Source: Lachnospiraceae bacterium
Lineage (GTDB): Bacteria > Bacillota > Clostridia > Lachnospirales > Lachnospiraceae
DNA length: 64,000 nt
NCBI GenBank assembly: GCA_015057555.1
Contig: SVEC01000013.1
Location: 1 to 64,000 of the forward strand
Direction of reading: 5' to 3'
Below are positions 1,365-8,465 of the stretch, piece by piece. How positions within the stretch are numbered: position 1 is the first letter of the stretch; each line of letters begins with the position of its first letter. The position numbers and the translations under genes were made by a program. The notes below the pieces were generated by a model that saw nothing but the letters and a program-made list of their open reading frames with translations, ran no database searches and was not told where the DNA came from.

Positions 1365-1547
1365 ATGTTATACATAAGTAAAGAAGAATATGAGCTTATG
1401 GAGTATAAGTCTAAATTTATTCATAATATAAATGATAGTTTACAAAATTATTATAATTTATCATGTATAAATAAAAATAATGTTAAGCCATTTATATTTA
1501 AAACATTATTGGGTTTTATGCTTATAATAAGTTCTAGAACTTATTAG
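1365..1547 (+). CDS. Small hypothetical protein (60 aa)
   Basis: I do not recognise this product. The ATG at 1365 is preceded by GAGGAGGGA at good spacing, whereas the longer track start at 1323 lacks a ribosome binding site. The 60-residue protein begins 'MLYISKEEYELMEYK', is rich in Asn, Tyr and Lys, and ends in a hydrophobic stretch 'LLGFMLII', so membrane association is possible. A terminator follows six bases after the stop, so it is a monocistronic unit ahead of the restriction-modification operon. A conserved role is unproven. Confidence 0.5.
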   Translation: MLYISKEEYELMEYKSKFIHNINDSLQNYYNLSCINKNNVKPFIFKTLLGFMLIISSRTY

Positions 1548-1552
1548 ATAAA

Positions 1553-1588
1553 ACGGAGAGTAAATTGAAATATTTACTCTCCGTTTTT
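1553..1588 (+). terminator. Intrinsic terminator after small ORF
   Basis: A 13-bp perfect stem, ACGGAGAGTAAAT with ATTTACTCTCCGT, is followed by TTTT. It insulates the small upstream gene from the restriction-modification operon. Confidence 0.85.
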
Positions 1589-1610
1589 GTAAATATTCAA
1601 AATGAAGTTG

Positions 1611-1656
1611 AATTATTCAAAACTAATTTGAATAATTTAATAATGACTGGTATAAT
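1611..1656 (+). promoter_or_regulatory. Controller-gene promoter with overlapping palindromic operator
   Basis: A SigA-type promoter TTGAAT (1628-1633), 17-bp spacer, TATAAT (1651-1656) precedes the XRE controller gene. A perfect 11-bp inverted repeat, AATTATTCAAA (1611-1621) and TTTGAATAATT (1627-1637), overlaps the -35 box, and a third half-site AAATATTCAAA lies at 1591-1601. Restriction-modification controllers classically bind such paired sites on their own promoter, so autoregulation is inferred. Confidence 0.75.
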
Positions 1657-1693
1657 CATAATATACAATTTTTATATTAGTGAGGTTTAATAT

Positions 1694-1900
1694 ATGACAG
1701 TAAGCTATAATAAACTATGGAAAAAGTTGATTGACAACAACATGATGAAAAAGGATTTAAGAGAAGCAGCAGGTGTTACAACCAATGTTATGGCAAAAAT
1801 GGGAAAAAACGAACATGTTTCAACAGAAGTGTTATGTAAAATTTGTGAAGTGTTGAATTGTGAGATAGATGATATTATTGATATAAAAAAAGAGTACTGA
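1694..1900 (+). CDS. XRE/Cro-type transcriptional regulator, probable R-M controller
   Basis: This 68-residue protein is a stand-alone helix-turn-helix of the Cro/YozG-like type. The segment 'MMKKDLREAAGVTTNVMAKMGKNEHVS' corresponds to helices 2-4, and 'ICEVLNCEIDDIIDI' closes the fold. Small regulators of this sort commonly sit just ahead of cytosine methyltransferase genes and act as controllers that delay or balance nuclease expression. Here the gene precedes the methyltransferase by 59 bases, and its promoter overlaps a perfect palindrome. The DNA-binding fold is secure; the controller role is inferred from position and operator. Confidence 0.85.
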   Translation: MTVSYNKLWKKLIDNNMMKKDLREAAGVTTNVMAKMGKNEHVSTEVLCKICEVLNCEIDDIIDIKKEY

Positions 1901-1959
1901 TTATAGGTCGTATTAAAAGATATAATTATAATAAATATTTAAAGAAGATGAGGTAGGAT

Positions 1960-2967
1960 ATGTTTACAACAATAGAGTTATTTGCAGGAGCTGGTGGATT
2001 GGCGTTAGGAGTAGAAAAGGCAGGATTTAATACACTTGGGCTCGTAGAATTTGATAAGGATGCCTGTGATACATTAAGAAAAAATAGACCTGAATGGAAT
2101 GTAATATGTGATGATATAGCTAATATATCTGGGCAGGATTTGGAGAAGCTGTTTGGCGTTAAGAAAAGAGAACTAGATTTATTATCAGGTGGTGCCCCAT
2201 GTCAAGCTTTCTCTTATGCAGGAAAAAGATTAGGATTAGAAGATGCTAGAGGTACTTTGTTTTATCATTATGCAATGTTTCTAGAAAAATTACAGCCTAA
2301 AATGTTCTTGTTTGAAAATGTAAAAGGCCTATTAACACATGATAGAGGAAAAACATATGCGACAATACTGGGCATTTTCAAAAAAGCAGGTTATGAGATA
2401 CAAAAGGATGTATTAAATGCATGGGATTTTGGCGTTGCACAAAAAAGAGAAAGATTGATTACAATAGGTATTAGAAATGATTTAGTTGGAAAGATTAATT
2501 TTTCATTTCCAGAGGTTCATAAATATAAACCTGTGTTAAGGGATGTGTTGCAAAACGTTCCACAAAGCATAGGAGTTCCTTACGGTGAGACTAAAAGAAA
2601 AATATTTGAATTAGTTCCAGCAGGAGGATATTGGAGAGATATTGACCCTGAGATAGCAAAATCTTATATGAAGAGTTGTTGGAATATGGAAGGTGGAAGA
2701 ACTGGAATATTGCGTAGAATGAGCATGGACGAGCCATCGTTGACTGTATTAACATCACCATCTCAAAAACAGACAGAACGTTGCCATCCGTTAGAGGCAA
2801 GACCATTTACTGTTAGAGAAAATGCGAGATGCCAGAGCTTTCCTGATGAGTGGGAATTTTGTGGTAGTGTTATGTCACAGTACAAGCAGGTAGGTAATGC
2901 AGTACCAGTTAATTTGGCATATGAGGTGTCAAAGGAAATATATAAAGCATTGGAGGAAGAAAAATAA
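1960..2967 (+). CDS. DNA (cytosine-5-)-methyltransferase, type II R-M
   Basis: It transfers a methyl group from SAM to C5 of cytosine, protecting host DNA from the nuclease encoded next. The 335-residue protein carries the family motifs in order: motif I 'FAGAGGLALG' (8-17, SAM binding), motif IV 'GGAPCQAFS' with catalytic Cys81, motif VI 'ENVKGL' (119-124), motif VIII 'QKRERLITIGIR' (about 160-171) and motif X 'QVGNAVPVNLA' near residue 311. The region between motifs VIII and IX is the target-recognition segment. Its stop overlaps the start of the endonuclease gene (TAATG), indicating translational coupling. The partner's family suggests GGNCC-type specificity; the sequence alone cannot prove that. 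Confidence 0.95.
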   Translation: MFTTIELFAGAGGLALGVEKAGFNTLGLVEFDKDACDTLRKNRPEWNVICDDIANISGQDLEKLFGVKKRELDLLSGGAPCQAFSYAGKRLGLEDARGTLFYHYAMFLEKLQPKMFLFENVKGLLTHDRGKTYATILGIFKKAGYEIQKDVLNAWDFGVAQKRERLITIGIRNDLVGKINFSFPEVHKYKPVLRDVLQNVPQSIGVPYGETKRKIFELVPAGGYWRDIDPEIAKSYMKSCWNMEGGRTGILRRMSMDEPSLTVLTSPSQKQTERCHPLEARPFTVRENARCQSFPDEWEFCGSVMSQYKQVGNAVPVNLAYEVSKEIYKALEEEK

Positions 2968-3851
2968 TGGAGTGGAATTTGAAGTTTATATCTGAAGAAG
3001 ATTTTACAAAACATGTTAAGGCTACTATTGAAAAGTATGGTGAAAAACTTGAATCCTTTGATGTAAAGCGATTTAATAAAAACATAATTGACCCTATTAA
3101 GCTGATTTTTGATAAAACTGTATATCGTTCTACTTGGGATGAAATCGTGAGTAATGAAATATTCAGACAAAGAGATAAAGCTAATAACAATGACATTGGA
3201 TATTTTCATCAGAGAATATTTCAGTACATTACTAATTGCCGTGTTCCTGAAAATGGAAAAGAGGGAGGTTGGGATGTAATATACAATAATGATGATGGTG
3301 TGATTCTTCCAGGTGGAGATATGGTTTATAATATTTATGTAGAGATGAAAAATAAGCATAATACTATGAATTCAGCATCCGCTGGCAAGACATACATAAA
3401 AATGCAGAATCAATTATTGAAGGATGACGATTGCGCGTGTTTTCTTGTAGAAGCTATTGCTCAAAAGTCACAGAATATTAAATGGGAAACAACTGTTGAT
3501 AAGAATAAGGTATCTCATAGACGAATAAGAAGAGTGAGTTTGGATCAGTTTTATGCGCTGGTAACAGGTGAAGAAGATGCATTTTATCAAATGTGTATGG
3601 TGTTACCGGATATTATTGAAAAGGTTGTAAATAGTGGCGAAGGTATTAGTGTTCCAGAAGATACTGTATTAGATGAATTAAAAAATATAGCTACTCAGAT
3701 TGGCGAAGAATCAGAATCTCTGGCTATGGCAATGGCTGTTTATATGCTTGGATTTAATACTTACAATGGATTCAAGGATTATTTTAAAGGAGAAGATGTA
3801 CAAGATGATGCAATGCTAAAGAGATTGTATGCATATGCTAAACATTTGTAA
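2967..3851 (+). CDS. Eco47II/Sau96I-like type II restriction endonuclease
   Basis: The 294-residue protein resembles the Eco47II restriction endonuclease family (known members cut GGNCC) along its N-terminal two thirds: 'FISEEDFTKHV', 'NIIDPIKLIFDK', 'NEIFRQRDK.NNNDIGYFHQ' and 'NGKEGGWDV'. Likely PD-(D/E)XK residues are Asp103 in 'GGWDV' and Glu126/Lys128 in 'VEMKNKHNTMNS'. The start codon overlaps the methyltransferase stop, so the two are cotranscribed and coupled. It appears full length with no frameshift, so the system is probably active. The family assignment is from remembered motifs, and the recognition site is inferred. Confidence 0.82.
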   Translation: MEWNLKFISEEDFTKHVKATIEKYGEKLESFDVKRFNKNIIDPIKLIFDKTVYRSTWDEIVSNEIFRQRDKANNNDIGYFHQRIFQYITNCRVPENGKEGGWDVIYNNDDGVILPGGDMVYNIYVEMKNKHNTMNSASAGKTYIKMQNQLLKDDDCACFLVEAIAQKSQNIKWETTVDKNKVSHRRIRRVSLDQFYALVTGEEDAFYQMCMVLPDIIEKVVNSGEGISVPEDTVLDELKNIATQIGEESESLAMAMAVYMLGFNTYNGFKDYFKGEDVQDDAMLKRLYAYAKHL

Positions 3852-3920
3852 AGATCATGACATATATCAACTTAATGAAAGTAGATGATTGAATAATTTA
3901 GAATAAGGAGGGATTGTTAG

Positions 3921-4817
3921 ATGATAGACAAGAGCAAATTGATTTTACCAGTATATTTGAATGAGAACATAGTAATGGATATGTTAGCAATAATAGAAGA
4001 TGGTTTTTCTATGGTAAGTGAGATTAGTACTTCGTCCGTAGCTACTACAAATAAAAACGAAAAAGTAAATGCTACATTTGCAACAAGTGACTTATTGAGT
4101 AAACTGTTGAAGATTGAACTTGGGGCGGAATCAAATAAAAAATCGGAGGATGAAAATTCTACTAATAGTAAAACTGAAAAAATTCATACAAGTACATCAT
4201 TGTTGTCCAAATTTAGAAGTGAATTACTTGAACTGGGCTTAATGACAAGCACTTCTGATACAGGAGTAAACATTAATGAAATTGAAGCAGGCGATTTTAT
4301 TGAAGTGACAGGTGAGTTAATGAAAAATCCTATGGTAAATATCTTGGAAAAAGCAATAGATGTTTTTCGTATGGCTGATATTTTTTCTGACAAGCCTGAA
4401 TTGGGTTCAAAAAAGCAGACGTCAACAAAAAACACACAGGATGCAAAAATTGTTAAACAAATGAAAATGTTTTTAGATGAATTAAAAGTGACAGGAACAA
4501 TTGATTTTGTTATGAAAAATTGTAATAGTACAATTGTACTCTCAGCACAAGAACAGTATTTACAGAATGATAATATTTCTGAATTGCTTGGTGGAAAGTT
4601 TAAGGTGCTAGGTAAGGTTATCAAGGTTTGCAAACAGAGTGGGGATAGTATTAATTTATTGCGAAAAACAACATTAGATGTATTAAAAGATGAAGAATTA
4701 AAAACATTTACAGAAATTTTTGAAAATGCAGAATTAAAAAAGTTCAACTTGCCAGATGTAGAAGTAAAAATTGAAGCACCTGCAGCTATTGTAATTCCGA
4801 TTGCGATATATGTTTAA
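3921..4817 (+). CDS. DUF6414-like protein of the defence island
   Basis: The 298-residue product begins 'LILPVYLNENIVMDMLAIIEDGFS'. This opening resembles the family I know as DUF6414, proteins of unknown function frequently found in defence neighbourhoods; I could not search for it. Residues 50-95 are Ser/Thr/Lys-rich and low complexity. The middle has 'IEAGDFIEVTGELMKNP', and 'GGKFKVLGKVIKV' near 220 looks like a small beta-rich domain. No membrane segment or enzymatic motif is visible. It has its own AAGGAGG site, lies 69 bases after the endonuclease gene and is followed 28 bases later by the kinase gene. The three probably belong to one island and perhaps one transcript. Function unknown. 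Confidence 0.6.
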   Translation: MIDKSKLILPVYLNENIVMDMLAIIEDGFSMVSEISTSSVATTNKNEKVNATFATSDLLSKLLKIELGAESNKKSEDENSTNSKTEKIHTSTSLLSKFRSELLELGLMTSTSDTGVNINEIEAGDFIEVTGELMKNPMVNILEKAIDVFRMADIFSDKPELGSKKQTSTKNTQDAKIVKQMKMFLDELKVTGTIDFVMKNCNSTIVLSAQEQYLQNDNISELLGGKFKVLGKVIKVCKQSGDSINLLRKTTLDVLKDEELKTFTEIFENAELKKFNLPDVEVKIEAPAAIVIPIAIYV

Positions 4818-4845
4818 ACTCTTTTTGAAATGTGTTTGAAAGTGG

Positions 4846-6363
4846 GTGATAGAGTTGATTAGTGAAGATTCCTTGAAAAAGATTTCGCATATTTTTTGTG
4901 GAGATGAAGGAGATTTATATACATATAAAGGCGGACCAAAATTGGTTGAGTTTTTTAATAAATATTATGGTTCTAATGACAAATATGGACAAGGTTTTCC
5001 GTCGCGTTGGGTATATGTGTATGATAAGCTTGTACTATTGATCAACAGTAACCATTTTGATGGCTTTTTGGATATCATATTGAGTAAACAGTATTTGGTG
5101 GCAGAACAATCAATTACACAAGTTGAGGCTGCCGAAAAGATTGAAGTTATTTGGAGAGCGTTAAACAAAATTGTTGAGAGGGATCAATATAAAATTACTA
5201 CTAACAATGGTAAATATTATTTGGTAAGAGAAAGTGATGATTTAGTGCTTGTTGGGAGTGGCGGTTTTGCTAATGTATATCGCCAGAAATCAACTGGCGT
5301 TATTATAAAAAAACTTAAAGATGATTTTTTGACAGATAAAGGTATAAGGAGTAGGTTCAAAAGGGAGTACAATATCACAAAGTCGCTCCAAGGAACATTT
5401 GGAATCATTGATGTTTATGCATTTGATGAAGACGTGTGCTCGTATACAATGGAGCCGGCAGAAACAACATTAGAAAAATATATTAAAAACAATGATGTTT
5501 CTGAACAAATCAAAATCACATGTATTCGACAGATTTTACGTGTAATGACAGAAGTACATAATAGAGATATAATTCATAGAGATTTAAGTCCGAATAATAT
5601 TTTTATTATAGCAGGAGTGATAAAGATAGCTGATTTTGGATTGGGAAAAGATCTTAATGTGTTTACTTCTCATCAAACTATCCATACAAAGGCTATGGGA
5701 CAATACTATTATTGTGCACCTGAACAATTTATGATGTTACGTGAAGGCGACAAACGAAGTGATGTATATTCATTGGGTAGAGTAATCAATTATGTTATGA
5801 CTAAAGATCCTAGAAATTCACATCATGCATTTAGAAGTGTTTCTGAAAAGGCAACTAATGGAGATGCGGCTTATCGTTATGCTGATGCAGGTCAGCTGTC
5901 AATTTTTTTTGAGAAAGCTGTGACATATAGAAATCAAGCAGAGAATCAAGAAAGAATTGATTCGAAAATTAAAAGTAGAAAATTTGATGATGAGATAGAG
6001 AGTTATATATATAATCTAACAAATGAGGAAATTGCAAAAAGGATGCGATCGTATACAAATGGATTTTCGGATATGCTATTCCAATTTATGAAGCTGGATG
6101 ATTCGCATGCAGAGTTTGTAATTCAAAGTATAGATAAAGCGTACCAAATTGTAGGTGGACGAAGTTTTGAAGCATATGATGTGTATGCAATATTTGCAAA
6201 AAGAGTTTTAGAGGGTAAGTTTACATTTGTTGTAAAAGAGATTGCTGCAAATATTCTTAGATATGTTGCGTGGGATGTTAATAGATTTAGCGCCCAACAT
6301 ATGGTAGAAGAAATTATTGATGAGGGGATAGATCCTATGCTGGTGGACATTATTAGTAGTTAA
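4846..6363 (+). CDS. Eukaryotic-type Ser/Thr protein kinase with N-terminal accessory domain
   Basis: The kinase domain covers about residues 130-390: glycine loop 'VGSGGFANVY' (136-145), Lys155/156 in 'VIIKKL', catalytic loop 'HRDLSPNN' (244-251), 'ADFGLGK' (262-268) and 'APEQF'. All residues needed for phosphotransfer are present. The first 120 residues ('GPKLVEFFNKYYG', 'GQGFPSRWVYVYDKL') resemble an N-terminal module I associate with AbiJ-type and other phage-defence proteins; this is recollection, not a search. There is no PASTA region or membrane segment, unlike housekeeping PrkC kinases. Translation starts at GTG 4846 or, with a better-placed GGGTGA, at TTG 4855. Proximity to restriction-modification genes suggests an anti-phage role. 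Confidence 0.82.
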   Translation: MIELISEDSLKKISHIFCGDEGDLYTYKGGPKLVEFFNKYYGSNDKYGQGFPSRWVYVYDKLVLLINSNHFDGFLDIILSKQYLVAEQSITQVEAAEKIEVIWRALNKIVERDQYKITTNNGKYYLVRESDDLVLVGSGGFANVYRQKSTGVIIKKLKDDFLTDKGIRSRFKREYNITKSLQGTFGIIDVYAFDEDVCSYTMEPAETTLEKYIKNNDVSEQIKITCIRQILRVMTEVHNRDIIHRDLSPNNIFIIAGVIKIADFGLGKDLNVFTSHQTIHTKAMGQYYYCAPEQFMMLREGDKRSDVYSLGRVINYVMTKDPRNSHHAFRSVSEKATNGDAAYRYADAGQLSIFFEKAVTYRNQAENQERIDSKIKSRKFDDEIESYIYNLTNEEIAKRMRSYTNGFSDMLFQFMKLDDSHAEFVIQSIDKAYQIVGGRSFEAYDVYAIFAKRVLEGKFTFVVKEIAANILRYVAWDVNRFSAQHMVEEIIDEGIDPMLVDIISS

Positions 6364-6515
6364 TTTTGGAGACAAGTGAACCACTAATTAATCATTATAC
6401 AAGAAGTACTACCCCCTCAACCCCCAGTTGAATCCTCACCCCAAACTCCCTCATCCGGTTATTGCCCCACATCCATTTACTAAGCTATTATAAAGAAAAA
6501 AGGTTGGTGATTAAT
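6364..6515. other. C-rich spacer at the island edge
   Basis: This spacer contains an unusual run of C tracts (about 6410-6475; 'CCCCCTC', 'CCCCCAG', 'CACCCC') unlike the AT-rich sequence on either side. No gene, terminator or riboswitch I know is recognisable. It may mark the downstream boundary of the defence island or an untranslated leader of the next gene. Confidence 0.35.
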
Positions 6516-7766
6516 ATGCTTAACAGTATAAAAATTGGAAACTTTATAATGGCAAAGCGAAAGTCTTTAGGGATGACACAGCAACAGCTGGCGGACAAGC
6601 TAAATGTTTCATTTCAGGCAATCTCCAAGTGGGAGTGTGGAACAACATATCCAAATATTGAGATATTAAGGGACTTAGCTACTATTCTAGAAGTGTCAGT
6701 GGACGAAATTTTATCAGGAAGTGAAAAGGAAGTGGAAGGCCTATCATATAGCAAAGCGGGAATTGATATTACCTATACAGATACTATCAAAAAAGAGATG
6801 TCCAAGCACCTAGAAACCAAGGATAATCGTGTCCTAAATGGTTTAGGTCCATTTGCATCCTTGTATGATATTAAGTTCCCTAATATTGAGAATCCTGTGT
6901 TGGTATTAAAATCGGAAGAGCCAGGCTCCAAGCAAAAGCTTGCTATGGAGTATGGATACACCGAATCCATTTGTCACGATATGATTAACCATCTGGTGAA
7001 TGACATAGTGGTTATGGGGGCGAAGCCTCTGGCAGTATTAGATACCATAGTCTGTGGAAATGCAGAGAAAGACACCATCAGTGCATTGGTAAAAGGTGTA
7101 TCAGATGCCTGCAAGGAAAATGAATGTTCTTTGGTAGGTGGAGAGACATCCATCCAACCACTTGTTGTAGAATCAGGAGTATATGTTCTTACATCTAGCA
7201 TCGCAGGTATTGTTGAAAAGTCCAAGGTTATAGACGGCTCTGCAATTAAGGAAGGAGATGCTGTTTTAGCTATTGCCTCAAATGGACTACATACAAATGG
7301 ATACTCCCTAGTGCGATTACTTATGGATAAGATGCCACAGATTAAGCTGGATAAGATAGATGGATTAACATTTATAGAGCAGATTATGAAGCCACACACA
7401 CCATATTACAAATCAATCAAGGGCTTGCTTGGTGGAGAACTTATTCATGGTATGGCTCATATTACAGGTGGTGGAATAGAAGGAAATCTCTGTAGAATTA
7501 TTCCGGATGGTCTCAGTGCTAAGATTGATTTGTCCAAGATAAAAACATTAAATATATTTAAGTATATCAAACATAATGGCAATATAAGTGATGAAGAGAT
7601 GCTGCGAACCTTTAACTGTGGAGTAGGCTTCAATGTTGTGGTAGCCCAGAAAGTTAAAGCGCAGGTCATAGAGCATATAAGTAAGTTTTATGATTGCTAT
7701 GAGATTGGAACCATAGAAAAGGGAGATAGGAAGGTAGAATTTGAGAACAAGATATATTGGTTGTAG
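6516..7766 (+). CDS. XRE helix-turn-helix fused to a PurM-like (AIR synthase) domain
   Basis: Residues 5-68 form an XRE helix-turn-helix ('MTQQQLADKLNVSFQAISKWECGTTYP'). Residues 75-416 resemble AIR synthetase (PurM): 'AGIDITYTDTIKK', 'LNGLGPFASLYD', 'INHLVNDIVVMGAKPLAVLD', 'CSLVGGETS' and 'AIASNGLHTNGYSLVR'. PurM closes the imidazole ring in purine synthesis. However, the usual 'DGVGTK' is replaced by 'EEPGSK' and 'GGETAEMPG' by 'GGETSIQPL', so catalysis is doubtful. I infer a regulator whose PurM-like part senses a nucleotide or purine intermediate, or a divergent enzyme. The start at 6516 is chosen because GGTGA lies 5 bases upstream; the track start at 6462 sits in C-rich non-coding sequence. 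Confidence 0.82.
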   Translation: MLNSIKIGNFIMAKRKSLGMTQQQLADKLNVSFQAISKWECGTTYPNIEILRDLATILEVSVDEILSGSEKEVEGLSYSKAGIDITYTDTIKKEMSKHLETKDNRVLNGLGPFASLYDIKFPNIENPVLVLKSEEPGSKQKLAMEYGYTESICHDMINHLVNDIVVMGAKPLAVLDTIVCGNAEKDTISALVKGVSDACKENECSLVGGETSIQPLVVESGVYVLTSSIAGIVEKSKVIDGSAIKEGDAVLAIASNGLHTNGYSLVRLLMDKMPQIKLDKIDGLTFIEQIMKPHTPYYKSIKGLLGGELIHGMAHITGGGIEGNLCRIIPDGLSAKIDLSKIKTLNIFKYIKHNGNISDEEMLRTFNCGVGFNVVVAQKVKAQVIEHISKFYDCYEIGTIEKGDRKVEFENKIYWL

Positions 7767-7833: not shown

Positions 7834-7855
7834 TATAGAAACATTAGTTTCTATT

Positions 7856-7950
7856 GAGGCGTTTGTCAGAATAGCCTGGCTAAATAAAAACTGAAGAAAT
7901 TGTGAGGGGTTCGTCAGATGTACCTGTCTAAAAAAAGCTGAAGATATTGT
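7856..7950 (+). ncRNA. Type III antitoxin RNA, two tandem repeats (CptI-like)
   Basis: Two imperfect direct repeats of 48 and 47 bases (7856-7903 and 7904-7950) share GAGG.GTT.GTCAGA, .CCTG.CTAAA and CTGAAGA.ATTGT. They are followed at once by a terminator and then the toxin gene. This promoter, RNA repeats, leaky terminator, RNase order is diagnostic of type III systems. There the toxin cuts the repeat RNA into units that fold as pseudoknots and inhibit it. Two repeats of roughly 45 bases match the CptIN family known from Eubacterium rectale. The repeats diverge in the middle, so cleavage boundaries are estimates. Confidence 0.8.
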
Positions 7951-7956
7951 TTGATG

Positions 7957-7981
7957 AGGGAACCTTATGGTTCCCTTTTTT
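7957..7981 (+). terminator. Attenuating terminator between antitoxin RNA and toxin gene
   Basis: AGGGAACC-TTAT-GGTTCCCT is followed by a T-run. In type III loci this hairpin terminates most transcripts and keeps antitoxin RNA in excess over toxin mRNA. Confidence 0.9.
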
Positions 7982-7994
7982 ACTAGGAGGAGAA

Positions 7995-8465
7995 ATGGAA
8001 CCAAAGTTATGTTTTATTAGAGAATCGTATTTTAAGGATAATCAACATCTTGTTAAAATATTGGATTCAGGAAATGCAAGTAAGCAATCTAAAAGGACTC
8101 ATTTATGTGTCTTGATAGAAATGAACTCGAATAAATCTTATATTCCTTTGAGAAATAATTTGGGGGATGATGTGAGGAAATTTGGTAGGATAGGGCATTC
8201 TGTACCTTCGGACAAACGAAAAAATGCAGGTTTAGATTTTAGATATGCTCTTATTATAAACGATGAGTCTTATATAGAAATACAAAAGGACAAAAGAATA
8301 CCAGAATCACAGTATAGAAAAATAAAAAATGACTATGACGCGATAAGCAATGAGTTTTCAGTATATGTCAAAGGCTTTATAAAAGTGGCAAAGAAAAAAC
8401 GTATTGATAAAGAACCGTTATATAGAGTGTCTAGTCTTGTGAATTATACAAGTGAATTGCTATAA
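7995..8465 (+). CDS. Type III toxin, ToxN/AbiQ/CptN-like endoribonuclease
   Basis: The 156-residue product begins 'KLCFIRESYF' and contains 'KQSKRTHLCVLIEMNSNKSYIPLRNN' followed by a Lys-rich central part. This matches the layout of ToxN/CptN toxins: an N-terminal beta strand, then the 'yi.vvle.ng..yfiPL' core. These RNases cleave mRNA and their own antitoxin RNA and cause abortive infection or plasmid maintenance. The start at 7995 is chosen because AGGAGG lies four bases upstream; the longer track start lies inside the terminator. The upstream RNA repeats strengthen the assignment. Subfamily (CptN rather than ToxN) is inferred from the repeat number and length. Confidence 0.82.
   Translation: MEPKLCFIRESYFKDNQHLVKILDSGNASKQSKRTHLCVLIEMNSNKSYIPLRNNLGDDVRKFGRIGHSVPSDKRKNAGLDFRYALIINDESYIEIQKDKRIPESQYRKIKNDYDAISNEFSVYVKGFIKVAKKKRIDKEPLYRVSSLVNYTSELL

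Follow-up and report, generated by a model that had tools for sequence, protein, structure and literature searches.

We consider it likely that the locus described here is an Eco47II-type type II restriction-modification (R-M) operon that carries two exchangeable second-line defence genes behind its restriction endonuclease (REase) gene, one of which codes for a serine/threonine kinase of the Stk2 family. The locus lies in a window of 64,000 nucleotides (positions 1 to 64,000, forward strand, of contig SVEC01000013.1) from a Lachnospiraceae bacterium (GCA_015057555.1). Our reading is based on the observed genes, the match of the kinase to the Stk2 family, its intact catalytic residues, an insertion for which an empty site was found, a lack of co-occurrence between the two added genes and a variable gene slot behind the R-M core. 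Given that the kinase belongs to a known family, and that its pairing with the preceding gene was encountered nowhere else, we regard the locus as an ordinary defence cassette whose additional genes are exchangeable.

The cassette consists of five genes, all on the plus strand, that code for a helix-turn-helix (HTH) regulator, a C5-cytosine DNA methyltransferase (MTase), an Eco47II-family REase, a DUF6414 protein and a Ser/Thr kinase. An earlier note made from this DNA had described a type II R-M system, a DUF6414-like protein and a Ser/Thr kinase as occurring together, which agrees with the shared strand and with the Pfam matches obtained for each. The span it assigned to the system (1365-6363) holds for these genes, but not for the open reading frame at 1365-1547, whose 60-amino-acid product had no match in a Pfam search and does not clearly belong to the system. 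The MTase and REase genes abut, and they are followed by gaps of 69 nt between the REase and DUF6414 genes and 28 nt between the DUF6414 and kinase genes. Because this spacing is close and a terminator scan found no site between the cassette genes, their co-transcription as a single RNA is plausible.

The AT-rich inserted segment of ~5.4 kb, to which no strand is assigned, has approximate borders at about 1014 and 6414, and is located between rpsI (461-856), which with rplM (9-443) lies on its 5′ side, and a purM-like gene. Homology on the left to one genome of the same genus (G786) ends at window position 1013, while homology to another (G778, locus L136) breaks off at 855 and picks up again at 6415. 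The latter genome presents an empty site, with the purM-like gene next to rpsI and no part of the cassette present. The GC content of the cassette is 31.5% versus 37.5% for window positions 8612-64000, which is low but not unique, as comparably low values occur in 32 of 521 overlapping stretches of the same size in the window. Neither the kinase nor DUF6414 occurs in any of 36 further genomes that were sampled from the genus. These sequence comparisons support the view that the R-M, DUF6414 and kinase genes constitute a defence cassette, acquired horizontally and placed behind a ribosomal operon, in agreement with the defence island described in the earlier note. In a genome from another family, this Eco47II R-M core is likewise found downstream of rplM-rpsI (L153, 285-4102), which suggests that this spot is a recurrent landing site.

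Some features beyond the right border were also recorded. The purM-like protein (6462-7766; TIGR00878, over cut-off) carries an N-terminal Cro/C1 HTH domain, and this fused protein is conserved in L136 with 94% identity. Farther downstream (7855-8465) is a type III toxin-antitoxin-like locus composed of two 47-48-nt repeats, a hairpin-plus-T terminator and then a gene for a TenpIN-like toxin (NCBIfam NF047358, 74.8 bits, which is below the cut-off of 90). Since L136 lacks this locus, it has the appearance of another insertion, located between the purM-like gene and one for a SAM methyltransferase.

The first cassette gene (1694..1900, plus strand) encodes a small, controller-protein-like regulator of 68 amino acids with a Cro/C1-type HTH domain (PF13443, E = 2e-16). 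It is preceded on the same strand by two operator-like palindromes of the form ATTCAA-N7-TTGAAT (1595-1613 and 1615-1633), which are situated 20 bp apart, and by a predicted promoter-like site (1628-1656; TTGAAT-17-TATAAT, with TG before the −10 element), although sites of this kind are no more frequent than expected by chance in such an AT-rich region. In three other genomes, relatives of the regulator (47-71% identity) are located directly 5′ of this MTase, and this shared placement fits the expectation for a controller protein. The R-M operon is probably governed by its own C-protein-like regulator.

The MTase (1960..2967, plus strand) matches PF00145 (E = 2e-83) and the PADLOC MTase_II model (E = 2e-124), and the motifs PCQ, ENVKG and QKRER can be recognized by reading its sequence. 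The adjoining REase gene (2967..3851, plus strand) matches PF09553 (RE_Eco47II, E = 4e-89), and its product is 63% identical to annotated Eco47II-family enzymes from Lactobacillus iners plasmids. The locus has the arrangement that characterizes Eco47II-type systems, with a C5 MTase beside an RE_Eco47II endonuclease. We presume that the window enzyme recognizes GGNCC, which we take to be the site of the family; the window contains 39 such sites versus about 52 expected, a deficit too weak to support a claim of avoidance.

A variable gene slot lies behind this conserved type II R-M core. The MTase-REase core was found in eight other genomes of the class (REase identity 46-80%), none of which has DUF6414 or Stk2 behind it. 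The genes downstream of the core could be identified in three of the eight on the basis of homology to annotated plasmid genes, and they code for a TIR protein (L152; also PDB 8btn, E = 5e-5), a TrlF-family ATPase (L154) and a P-loop NTPase (L157). In L152, a weak kinase-like match (27%) occurs on the opposite strand, and the Lactobacillus iners plasmid copy has no same-strand gene directly behind the core. The window therefore resembles other Eco47II-family systems in its gene order and family membership, and in the upstream HTH gene that several of them possess, but it differs from the eight class genomes and the plasmid copy in that it alone carries DUF6414 and Stk2 behind the REase gene.

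The last gene of the cassette (4846..6363, plus strand; PF00069, E = 3e-27) codes for a kinase of 505 amino acids when counted from the listed GTG start, although its homologues indicate that a TTG at 4855 may be the true start. Judging from a PADLOC profile match, this kinase is an orthologue of Stk2, a staphylococcal kinase, and so falls in a family that is already known. The match to the Stk2 model (PDLC02375) has an E value of 5.4e-215 and a score of 713 bits, and extends over model positions 2-499 of 500. As with Stk2, the protein is about 500 amino acids long and has a eukaryotic-like kinase core without PASTA domains, whereas its position directly behind a DUF6414 gene, second in line after a type II R-M pair, is particular to the window. 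Relatives from 32 further loci are 45-70% identical and align over nearly the full length. KKP and PD-T4-6 are likewise Ser/Thr kinases of phage defence. However, PD-T4-6, the next-best PADLOC kinase model, scores just 123 bits, and KKP is a prophage-borne kinase-kinase-phosphatase set whose models give much weaker scores for the window kinase.

An AlphaFold2 model of the kinase (mean pLDDT 85) comprises a helical N-terminal module (residues 1-112, 4846..5181, with a helical domain at residues 7-112), a kinase core and an all-helical C-terminal module (residues 348-505, 5887..6360), all encoded on the plus strand. The nearest solved structures are kinase domains such as those of PknA, PknB and Stk1. 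The catalytic core (5308..5634) includes K155 (5308-5310), the HRD aspartate D246 (5581-5583), N251 and the DFG aspartate D263 (5632-5634), and these four residues are invariant in 33 homologues. The HRD aspartate had been numbered 245 in the earlier note, but it is residue 246 when counted from the GTG at 4846. The same note correctly described a kinase free of PASTA and membrane parts: there is no Pfam PASTA match, the NCBIfam PASTA-kinase model gives 104 bits versus a cut-off of 450, and no membrane segment is obvious in the predicted fold, in which the flanking modules are helical. Its comparison of the N-terminal module with abortive-infection proteins holds only in part. The helical domain is real, but the 25 Pfam matches found most often in the 33 kinase homologues include no abortive-infection domain, and we therefore reject an N-terminal Abi domain. 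No relatives of Stk2 or DUF6414 were found on viral contigs, and none were found in phage records.

The gene between the REase and the kinase (3921..4817, plus strand) had been noted previously as coding for a protein of unknown role immediately behind the nuclease gene, and this placement is correct. Its product matches DUF6414 (PF19952, E = 6e-33) with 115 bits, well over the curated cut-off of 25. Some DUF6414 proteins are the DolA component of Dodola (DolA/DolB), and both the DolA-branch and window proteins match the Pfam family. Two DolA-branch relatives in our sample match the PADLOC DolA model (E = 3e-81 and 2e-81), a DolB-cluster gene directly follows all six DolA-branch members, and one DolB-cluster protein scores E = 2e-132 to DolB. 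Several DolA-branch genes also reside in R-M operons (HaeIII-type, another type II, and with HsdS), as does the window gene. By contrast, the window protein clusters with a distinct, non-DolA branch, has no match to the DolA model at E ≤ 1 and lacks an adjacent gene for the DolB AAA ATPase, and the two branches showed no significant similarity when their profiles were compared. We therefore reject membership in Dodola, as there is no DolA match and no DolB, and the next gene is stk2.

Neighbours of the window-branch members are varied: one gene (L048) lies behind a type III endonuclease gene, while some others are beside housekeeping genes, for example that for threonine synthase. Elsewhere (L042, 4743-6717), a DUF6414 gene overlaps a YhcG-type gene (DUF1016/PDDEXK, PADLOC PDC-S02) in a defence-like setting. 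A single-protein scan of genome contigs yielded no DUF6414 relatives, a sequence search of the PDB yielded none (best E = 0.86), and a single-sequence structure model was unusable (pLDDT 32). We think it most likely that DUF6414 is a separate, interchangeable defence gene that the kinase does not require as a partner.

The earlier note had proposed that DUF6414 and the kinase form an independent, undescribed anti-phage system, whose genes should be found together in other genomes. In samples that hold one genome per species and include many fragmentary assemblies, 391 genomes of the class contain Stk2 in five cases and DUF6414 in 24, and both only in the window genome. A DUF6414 model applied to the 38 other Stk2 neighbourhoods detected no convincing member. 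Among 36 Stk2-bearing genomes, DUF6414 exceeds the cut-off in two, which is near the base rate (21 of 391) and hence no excess, and one of these two genes is then followed by a gene for a DolB-kind AAA protein. No second pair was found in the 38 loci, the 391 genomes, the genus or the Stk2-bearing genomes, which is the outcome that the earlier note had itself named as refuting its proposal. With no excess co-occurrence either, the pair is not a conserved unit in our sample, and most likely it is a chance combination of exchangeable genes, so far found in this genome only. This result, together with the identity of the kinase as Stk2, which is already known as a single-gene system, leads us to reject an undescribed two-gene system as the most likely reading. 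The adjacency of the genes on one strand and their 28-nt gap also fit a functional pair, in which DUF6414 would sense infection or restrain the kinase, and Dodola offers a precedent for a DUF6414 protein working with a second gene, as the DolB-cluster genes behind every DolA-branch member illustrate. Against these points, Stk2 is described as acting singly, and the closest Stk2 relatives have an SduA-like protein gene upstream instead; a genuine pair of this kind thus seems very unlikely. Nor does it seem at all probable that either gene is a decayed or non-defensive passenger, an idea to which the housekeeping neighbours of some DUF6414 relatives lend weight, but which is opposed by two intact reading frames, conserved catalytic residues and the match of the kinase to its whole family model.

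Other Stk2 loci bear on a different possibility. In phmmer comparisons with reference proteins whose names came from Pfam, PADLOC or record annotation, 19 of the 38 other loci have an R-M gene no more than four genes away from stk2. This figure is descriptive, as opposed to an enrichment test against matched controls, and includes a few gene fragments at contig ends. In 12 of the 38, an R-M gene is directly adjacent on the same strand. The stk2 gene is located between hsdS and hsdR or beside the HsdR gene in seven loci and after a type III Res gene in three, with further copies after a type IIG enzyme gene and near type II enzyme genes. In a tree of the kinases, the copies embedded in hsdS-hsdR group as a single clade, and the window kinase belongs to a starred set of four whose other members are all preceded by SduA. 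In five loci (L053, L056, L059, L067 and L084), an SduA-like (Shedu, DUF4263) gene is directly upstream of stk2, where the window has DUF6414. In another (L034, 4101-8380), stk2 is directly behind a gene for a MobL relaxase with Sel1 repeats, which suggests that this copy is carried on a mobile element.

The papers that we found do not describe a link between Stk2 and R-M operons, although defence genes embedded in such operons are known. DarTG2 occurs with RptR in a type I R-M system, and it has been suggested that the gap between hsdS and hsdR serves defence genes generally as a landing site (PMC12255303), while PrrC guards a type I R-M enzyme (PMC12322248). The window shares with these examples a second defence gene in or behind an R-M operon and a small regulator in front, but it differs in having a type II system, an Stk2 rider, a C-protein-like regulator and other operator-like sites. 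By analogy with PrrC, Stk2 in R-M operons might act as a guard that is set off by phage inhibition or evasion of the R-M enzyme. Its repeated placement with R-M genes of several types, in arrangements that tend to sort by Stk2 clade, is consistent with this idea. Because the hsdS-hsdR gap may receive defence genes in general, however, position alone proves little, and about half of the Stk2 loci have no nearby R-M gene. Moreover, the trigger reported for Stk2 is a protein from the replication module of a phage and not an R-M inhibitor. We therefore view a guard role as unlikely, and the fuller version for this locus, in which Stk2 would sense failure or inhibition of the neighbouring REase and kill the cell while DUF6414 provides an additional layer, as similarly unlikely.

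With a cassette of exchangeable genes as the preferred reading, the R-M enzymes would restrict unmodified DNA as a first line of defence. Stk2 has been characterized as a host-encoded, single-gene abortive-infection kinase (PMC11341870) that is triggered by phage proteins (PMC12926258, PMC12323379). The orthologue in the window would most likely serve as a second line, remaining inactive until its autophosphorylation is induced by an early phage protein, and then phosphorylating many housekeeping proteins so that the cell stops before the phage matures. DUF6414 would act as a separate, interchangeable defence gene behind the REase. Phage triggering, cell death and any DUF6414 role in the cassette are what we infer for this organism. 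A useful by-product of the analysis is the recurrence of Stk2 within or next to R-M operons (types I, II, IIG and III), together with one conserved type II R-M core that carries varied genes behind its REase. This pattern opens a guard or backup function of Stk2 to direct testing.
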